NCBI GenBank assembly: GCA_947652925.1
Contig: CANTEW010000016.1
Span: 1 to 52,057, forward strand
Direction of reading: 5' to 3'
Source: an uncultured Lachnospiraceae bacterium
Lineage (GTDB): Bacteria; Bacillota; Clostridia; Lachnospirales; Lachnospiraceae
Length of the DNA: 52,057 bases
Part shown: one piece after another, positions 9,505 to 10,317 of the stretch
Position numbering within the stretch: position 1 is the stretch's first letter
Layout: the number at the start of each line of letters is the position of its first letter
Notes under the pieces: generated by a model
The model's database searches: none
Told to the model about the DNA's origin: nothing
The model's input: the letters and a program-made list of their open reading frames with translations, nothing else
Translations under genes and position numbers: made by a program

Positions 9505-9527
9505 TGTCAATATGTCTACTTTTTGGA
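9505..9527 (+). repeat. Left inverted repeat (recombination site) of the invertible promoter
   Basis: A 23-bp sequence that matches 9696-9718 in inverted orientation at 21 of 23 positions, with a perfect 16-bp core ATGTCTACTTTTTGGA. The site is itself an imperfect dyad: half-sites CAATATGT and ACTTTTTG flank the dinucleotide CT at 9516-9517. This is the expected layout of a small serine recombinase crossover site. Confidence 0.85.
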
Positions 9528-9695
9528 ATGTGGAGAGGATCGTCTGGGGTGTGTTGGATTTTTTAAAATCATGTAGATTTTTGGCAGATTTTGTGGTATA
9601 CTTCATTCTCAAGTGGTGATGATCTGGACTATATGTCAAAACAGGGCAGAGGACGATGCAGATATGGCGACGGTACGGGGCATATCGTCGAGCGA
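9528..9695. promoter_or_regulatory. Invertible promoter segment
   Basis: The 168 bp between the two inverted repeats contain an extended -10 promoter and no gene. Recombination between the repeats would turn the segment round. As given, the promoter reads rightwards, against the invertase gene. After inversion its -10 would lie at about 9621-9626 on the minus strand and would drive the DUF2142-GT2-YfhO operon through a ~380-nt leader. The drawn orientation is therefore probably OFF for the operon. I see no strong minus-strand promoter between 9233 and 9504. Confidence 0.8.
9594..9602 (+). promoter_or_regulatory. Extended -10 promoter inside the invertible segment
   Basis: TGGTATACT is a full extended -10 element (TGn plus TATACT at 9597-9602). 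The -35 region 17 bp upstream reads TAGATT and is weak, as is usual for extended -10 promoters. Transcription would start near 9609 and run rightwards in this orientation. Confidence 0.65.
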
Positions 9696-9718
9696 TCCAA
9701 AAAGTAGACATTTTGAGA
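9696..9718 (-). repeat. Right inverted repeat (recombination site) of the invertible promoter
   Basis: Inverted partner of 9505-9527. Half-sites CAAAAAGT and ACATTTTG flank the central dinucleotide AG at 9706-9707, the complement of the CT in the left site, so recombination should invert rather than delete. It ends 5 nt from the stop codon of the invertase gene. Confidence 0.85.
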
Positions 9719-9723
9719 TGGTC

Positions 9724-10317
9724 TTACATGTTTTTTCTGAGTTTTCTGTAAAATGTGGATCTGCTCATATGACTTTTATTGAGGGCTTCGGCCAGGCTGA
9801 TCCTCTTCATCTGCCAGTCATCTACGATCTCTGAGAAATCTTTGGGGACGATCGTCTCGGGTCTGCCGAATCTGACGCCGCGTTTTTTGGCGGCGGCGAT
9901 CCCTTGTTTTTGGCGGTCTTTGATGTTCCTCCGCTCTGATTCTGCAACAAATGATAGGATCTGGAGGACCAGGTCTGCGATAAATGTCCCCATCAGGTCT
10001 TTTCCGTTCCTCGTGTCCAGCAGGGGCATGTCGATCACACAGATATCGATGCCGATCTCTTTTGTGAGGATCCTCCATTGATCCTGTATCTCCTCATAAT
10101 CCCGTCCCAATCTGTCAATGCTCAGGATATACAGGAGGTCTCCTTTTTTGATGATCTGTATGAGCTTTGCGTATTGGGGCCTGTTGAAATTTTTGCCGGA
10201 TCGTTTGTCTATGTAGATGTTGCGGTTGGGGATGCCTTTCTCATGCAGCGCCAGTACCTGCCGGATCTCATTTTGGTCTGTAGCTGATACGCGCGCATAT
10301 CCATATACTTTTTTCAT
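9724..10317 (-). CDS. Small serine recombinase (Hin/Gin-like DNA invertase)
   Basis: A resolvase/invertase family recombinase of 197 aa, the normal length of a DNA invertase. The catalytic serine is S11 in [29 protein letters not shown] and [18 protein letters not shown] follow, the latter being the start of the long E helix. The C-terminal 45 residues, after GVRFGRPE, form a helix-turn-helix ([20 protein letters not shown]) for site binding. The ATG is preceded by AGGAGG. The gene ends 5 nt from one of two inverted repeats enclosing a promoter, which makes it the probable invertase for that switch. A resolvase role elsewhere cannot be excluded. Confidence 0.92.

Follow-up and report, generated by a model that had tools for sequence, protein, structure and literature searches.

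By its sequence, the locus described here is a member of a switch cassette of the Clostridia, in which a small serine invertase lies next to a short promoter-bearing segment held between two inverted crossover sites. In the stretch of DNA that was analysed (the window, 52,057 nucleotides) we consider it probable that this is a phase-variation cassette, in which the invertase flips a 168-nt promoter segment and so turns a glycosylation operon ON or OFF, with a probable second target on another contig of the same genome. Throughout, OFF denotes a promoter directed away from the cargo and ON a promoter directed towards it.

The invertase, its sites and the adjoining operon

The two inverted repeats, IR2 on the operon side (9505..9527) and IR1 on the invertase side (9696..9718), match at 21 of 23 positions on direct reading and enclose the segment at 9528..9695; a repeat search lengthens the arms to 9500-9527 and 9696-9723 (28 nt, 89%). 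Each arm carries a 20-bp crossover site, at 9507-9526 with the core CT and at 9697-9716 with the core AG, both read on the plus strand. A site profile derived from the family scores these two sites at 25.8 and 20.1. As controls, 388 windows of equal size were taken from related loci on the upstream side of the invertase, and in none did the second-best site rise above -4.7, to be compared with the 20.1 of the window's lower site. A terminator search of 9200-10480 found none. The initial annotation had described the 23-bp repeats around 168 bp, which the direct reading bears out, and had proposed both a promoter switch with a serine invertase and a dinucleotide crossover core, CT on the left and AG on the right; both proposals fit the comparison of 71 segments given below.

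The invertase gene (9724..10317, minus strand) has an intact reading frame of 197 aa, points its 3' end towards the switch and has its stop codon 5 nt from the right 23-bp arm, as had been annotated. Its product carries the Resolvase domain PF00239 (E 2e-27) and a C-terminal helix-turn-helix, HTH_7, at 24.2 bits, barely above the cut-off of 23.8. Residues R9, S11, D68, R69 and R72, which we take to be the catalytic set of small serine recombinases, are all present, and their columns are invariant across 81 family members apart from one R69C. The class assigned initially, a serine recombinase, therefore stands, and the label Hin-like proved loose: the nearest solved structure is Sin (2r0q, E 4e-27, deposited as Tn552 DNA-invertase bin3), followed by the gamma-delta/Tn3 resolvases at about 1e-18, and two chains deposited as 'DNA-invertase', presumably Gin, match at about 1e-11. 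The NCBIfam Mpi model NF009949 gives 38.1 bits against a cut-off of 272, which places the protein outside Mpi. Seven places in the genome carry a resolvase domain, and a second small invertase, 53-54% identical to the window's, is encoded on contig C8, where no such site pair was found beside the gene. Across the family, 179 of 299 genomes hold invertase relatives of any grade. A phage origin was considered and rejected, viral relatives being found on only 4 contigs (52-68% identical), one of which is identical in sequence to bacterial locus L093; the relatives in 276 phage records are all below 60% identical, and among the 5000 plasmid matches listed 4999 are below 60% and one lies at 60-80%.

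On the other side of the switch lie three minus-strand genes, all with open frames, which Pfam identifies as the initial annotation had: a DUF2142 membrane protein as first operon gene (7313..9232; PF09913, E 5e-53), a GT2 glycosyltransferase (6305..7306; PF00535, E 1e-18) and a YfhO-family membrane glycosyltransferase (3934..6333; PF09586, E 9e-73). The DUF2142 protein is probably a glycosyltransferase of GT-C type. The GT2 protein, which the AglJ and PgfS models match below their cut-offs, is a probable polyprenyl-phosphate sugar synthase, and the YfhO protein matches the PgfM2/PgfM1 models, again below cut-off. GT2 and YfhO stand side by side as in the CsbB-YfhO systems, a likeness at the level of the families, and Pfam revealed no GtcA-type flippase in the three-gene operon. 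Immediately downstream of YfhO, at the edge of the contig, lie two large serine recombinases that overlap (105-2024 and 1904-3727; Resolvase plus Recombinase domains).

The operon leader holds a dispersed repeat of about 235 bp (9249..9486, ends set by eye) with terminal inverted repeats near CTAGAGCGTGTTTGAAAACC. At least 40 copies are spread over the genome, and it has matches in G001, G002 and G004; 35 of 41 copies examined have no overlapping ORF call, and copies face either way with respect to the genes next to them. We had considered the leader as an RNA element, which was rejected on finding no relevant Rfam match and a dispersed sequence with terminal inverted repeats, that is, one resembling a MITE.

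A site family in Clostridia and the orientation of its promoter

A scan of genome contigs gave 471 pattern matches and 444 invertase relatives, of which the best 80 were analysed; 71 of these 80 have at least 350 nt of downstream DNA and form the denominator for the site counts. Two copies of a 20-bp site, with the consensus TCAAAARGT-NN-ACYTTTTGA learned from family loci, stand just after the invertase in 54 of the 71 relatives and in the window. They are absent from the other 17, for all their sufficient downstream DNA, and the 20-bp site is also missing from most extra invertase loci at 57-63% identity; the site is therefore specific to a subfamily. In the 55 loci (window included) the first site starts 11-294 nt past the end of the invertase match, at 25-60 nt in 47 of them, and the spacer between the sites measures 105-237 nt. 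The central dinucleotides of the two sites are reverse-complementary in 55/55 loci, i.e., the inverted sites have identical cores. Taken in either order, GT/AC accounts for 48 loci, CT/AG for 4, the window among them, and AA/TT for 2, and one locus has a palindromic AT core, so that the pairing holds equally in the 7 loci with cores other than GT/AC. The AT pair lies at L128:6623-6806, and such a core alone would not enforce inversion over deletion.

The exact family pattern gave 24 matches in 12 of 299 family genomes, and none with the reversed pattern as control. Five of the 24 fall in a genome (G300) that is absent from those listed with an invertase match. The exact pattern is too strict for the diverged sites of the window and gives 0 matches in its genome. 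At L068:1096-1400 a paralogous invertase, 85% identical in DNA to L065 of the same MAG, is followed by the first site only, and shortly after that site, by eye, comes an AMP-binding-enzyme coding sequence; this locus is possibly a degenerate switch.

The cargo of these switches is mixed. The 54 loci yielded 49 first downstream proteins (5 loci yielded none), with matches to Flg_new repeats (6), BspA-type LRR (5), dockerin (4), Big_2 Ig-like (3) and AMP-binding (3) domains.

Training a promoter model with the 55 spacers as input led to TTGCAT-17-TGGTATAAT, whose -10 ends 18-22 nt from the repeat that it faces in 48 of the 55, in either direction. With this model 49 spacers are called OFF and 5 ON, one being N-masked; when it was extended to 15 additional loci and to a segment on contig C4 of the window's own genome, 9 of these 16 came out OFF, 3 ON and 4 ambiguous. 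An untrained consensus promoter was far weaker, leaving 36 of the 55 spacers ambiguous (17 OFF, 2 ON) and 9 of the 16 further segments (4 OFF, 3 ON). A position-fixed pattern free of trained weights, whose position range was chosen after model training and which matches about 1.5% of shuffled spacers per orientation, called 49 OFF and 7 ON among the 71 segments (the 55 spacers plus the 16), with 15 giving no call. When similar spacers were merged into 61 clusters, the same pattern gave 41 OFF, 7 ON and 13 without a call (p = 6e-7). The methods disagree singly, L075 and L079 being ON only with the trained model and L167 only with the fixed pattern. The 49 OFF and 7 ON calls show that both orientations exist in the family and that OFF prevails. 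This evidence is across species, one genome standing for each; inversion within the window's own species is inferred.

Two reversed matches between homologous spacers of different species, one of L075 with L077 (45 nt, 82%) and one of L113 with L175 (25 nt), are consistent with opposite orientations. Two other reversed matches connect loci that are both called OFF, and matches this short and AT-rich are therefore weak. Locus pairs within one MAG were also considered as two states of one switch, and this was rejected, the four pairs being divergent paralogues.

In the window the predicted promoter is weak and lies at 9574..9602 on the plus strand, with a -35 of TAGATT, a 17-nt spacing and an extended -10, TGGTATACT, at 9594-9602. 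It is directed away from the operon and heads for the invertase gene, whose 3' end it faces. The family-trained model scores it at 13.4 bits, against -0.4 for the other orientation, and its -10 region is common to the segments of C4 and of the sister species G001, with which the window's segment aligns in the same orientation. The generic promoter scan did not list it and the position-fixed pattern missed it; 94 nt separate its -10 from the repeat, compared with about 20 in the family. The proposal that the switch is currently OFF, and that it stands upstream of a glycosylation operon, agrees with the 71-segment comparison, albeit with a poor -35 and a displaced -10.

In the sister species (L062, CAJTFD010000001.1) the invertase is 83% identical, and the CT/AG sites and the OFF promoter are kept. 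Downstream come AT3, DUF2142 (54% over 492 aa), GT2 (82%) and YfhO (75%); AT3 may have been lost in the window, since none lies between its switch and its repeat. The DUF2142 profile in G001 falls into two pieces in different frames (L062:8127-10158; 4-306 and 311-393 of 395), so that the gene looks broken or the assembly errs. Copies of the MITE-like repeat occupy the AT3/DUF2142 gap (L062:8052-8205) and the DUF2142/GT2 gap (10186-10351), and in the G001 stretch examined an IS4/5-type transposase gene follows YfhO, at the place of the window's large serine recombinases. At L184:9442-9679, G001 has a further invertase with an AG/CT pair of its own, upstream of an 876-aa protein with Flg_new repeats. 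G002, of the same genus, carries DUF2142-GT2-YfhO (53, 81 and 65%) without the switch: the only inverted pair upstream is a 14-nt one, unrelated in sequence, and the site pattern is absent genome-wide.

A probable second switch in the same genome and the competing readings

The genome to which the window belongs (G000; 2.92 Mb in 100 contigs, the window's being C16) holds 7 sites with at most 3 mismatches, and these are paired in inverted orientation at only two places, on C16 and on C4; the sites on C35, C38 and C75 are single, with 3 mismatches each. Pattern search places the second pair at G000:C4:82354-82373 and 82518-82537, with a CT/AG core and 144 nt between. It adjoins a minus-strand DUF2142-GT2-YfhO operon whose products are 56, 85 and 90% identical to the window's, with pfkA and trkH on its other flank. 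No invertase relative was found near the pair in the 17 kb examined, and none of the genome's 7 resolvase-domain places is on C4. The trained model has the C4 promoter pointing away from the operon (7.0 vs -1.9), hence OFF; it points towards pfkA and may add to pfkA transcription in that state. Since this CT/AG pair precedes a paralogous operon and has no invertase relative nearby, one invertase probably serves both operons. DUF2142, at only 56% identity (L183:6427-8358 vs 7313-9232), is the divergent member of the paralogous operons, next to 90% for YfhO and 85% for GT2, for which gene conversion, or selection for different DUF2142 specificity, may be suggested. Further orphan pairs occur in G161 (one) and G267 (two), all three with promoters directed away from the adjoining gene.

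In the reading we favor, the invertase would bind the two 20-bp sites, cut at the central CT/AG and rejoin the strands with the 168-nt segment flipped. In the present orientation the single promoter would run away from the operon and enter the invertase gene from its 3' side; once flipped, it would transcribe DUF2142-GT2-YfhO. The operon products resemble multi-component transmembrane glycosylation systems, and ON cells would accordingly bear an extra sugar on an envelope polymer or surface protein. The same enzyme would flip the C4 segment in trans, before the paralogous operon, for which action in trans is the simplest reading. The initial annotation gave the switch its own invertase, and the adjacency holds, but exclusivity does not, the enzyme probably also serving the orphan switch at G000:C4:82354-82537. 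One enzyme acting on two switches would allow up to four surface states.

It could instead be argued that the invertase flips only the C16 segment and that the C4 pair either is left over from a duplication or depends on the C8 invertase. The outer flank of the invertase-side repeat, GAC..TCTCA, is common to C4 and C16, which would fit the former presence of an invertase next to the C4 pair, and the C8 enzyme is indeed another small serine recombinase at hand. However, the C4 sites are closer to the family consensus (1 mismatch each) than those of the window (2 and 3), the cores at the two places are identical, the C8 enzyme has no such sites alongside, and orphan pairs recur in G161 and G267. 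A purely local switch is therefore rather unlikely.

Less credit is due to the idea of a decayed switch, locked OFF, whose operon has ceased to be phase-variable. It draws on the poor -35, on the distance of the -10 from the repeat and on the MITE-like repeat between switch and start codon, which by eye has no counterpart in the leader at C4, a short one; the repeat also contains weak promoter-like matches directed at the operon (4 in the region vs 2.7, sd 1.7, in shuffles). Against this, comparison with G001 and C4 shows conservation of the invertase, of the two sites and of the -10 region, and the operon genes are all open, making a locked switch quite improbable. That the repeats form a resolvase-type resolution site or a bidirectional terminator unrelated to promoter inversion is hardly credible, even with a catalytic domain nearest to resolvases among solved structures, as the sites are inverted and not direct, the cores match in every one of the 55 loci, the family promoter keeps a fixed place in both orientations and the terminator search was negative.

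Beyond the phase-variation cassette itself, a broader reading would see in these Clostridia an architecture that defaults to OFF, joined here to one enzyme that couples two operons. The OFF promoter would run antisense into the invertase gene and silence the flipping enzyme, and the ON orientation would release it, returning most cells to OFF. The bias across clusters (41 vs 7) is observed; its antisense cause is conjectural, and is weakened in that the four orphan switches are OFF as well, with no invertase alongside. As the sole cause of the bias antisense was rejected on these four, and the broader reading as a whole we regard as speculative and probably wrong in part or in full.

Known systems and what the switch may mean

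Invertible promoters and multi-target serine invertases are already known. In E. coli, the orientation of the fim switch may tune expression of its recombinases, which are tyrosine recombinases; for the window's locus, recombinase expression tuned by orientation is a hypothesis only. Hin and Gin are serine recombinases acting at inverted sites with a central dinucleotide and a Fis-bound enhancer. The window's invertase is of the same class, with inverted sites and a central dinucleotide, but lies outside its segment, and the 'DNA-invertase' chains, presumably Gin, are more distant from it than Sin. A Hin model is mentioned in PMC11868660.

Closer in biology is Mpi, the master serine invertase of Bacteroides fragilis, for which PMC4747536 gives 13 invertible regions, including 7 promoters of polysaccharide loci. 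As proposed here, a small serine recombinase flips surface-glycan promoters, distant sites included; unlike Mpi, which belongs to another phylum, the window's invertase adjoins one of its targets with its 3' end towards the promoter. The same paper describes BF2766/Tsr19 of B. fragilis, a single invertase with one adjacent and one distant promoter and with surface-polysaccharide genes at the local one, an arrangement like the one proposed here except that BF2766 is a tyrosine recombinase. Mpi and BF2766 are the precedents for action in trans on C4. Among Clostridia, inverton group 139 also has a nearby invertase but is linked to tyrosine recombinases in PMC11892184. The invertible sites described for C. 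difficile and further Clostridia (PMC5903667, in which 14 of 15 positive Firmicutes samples were Clostridia) are short intergenic inversions as here, a likeness by description only, and their neighbors serve mostly signaling and chemotaxis, unlike the window's glycosylation operon. The operon itself recalls CsbB-GtcA-YfhO transmembrane glycosylation (PMC8035078, in part), with which it has the GT2 and YfhO pair in common, and differs in its extra DUF2142 and in having no flippase among the three genes.

The GT/AC form of the site, as 20- and 16-letter strings, was not found in a literature search, and a search combining invertible promoter, serine recombinase and Lachnospiraceae found no paper, supplements lying outside the search, where single loci may be listed. 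Wider searches returned other systems only, as far as titles, abstracts and passages tell.

Related genomes hold the switch at no fewer than 54 loci, and many of these genomes are gut or rumen Clostridia by their record labels. Its site, core rule and promoter geometry are defined by sequence, which allows switches to be predicted, orientations to be called from assemblies and orphan targets, acted on in trans, to be found. Two testable questions follow: why these switches mostly rest OFF, and whether a single invertase couples two glycosylation operons.
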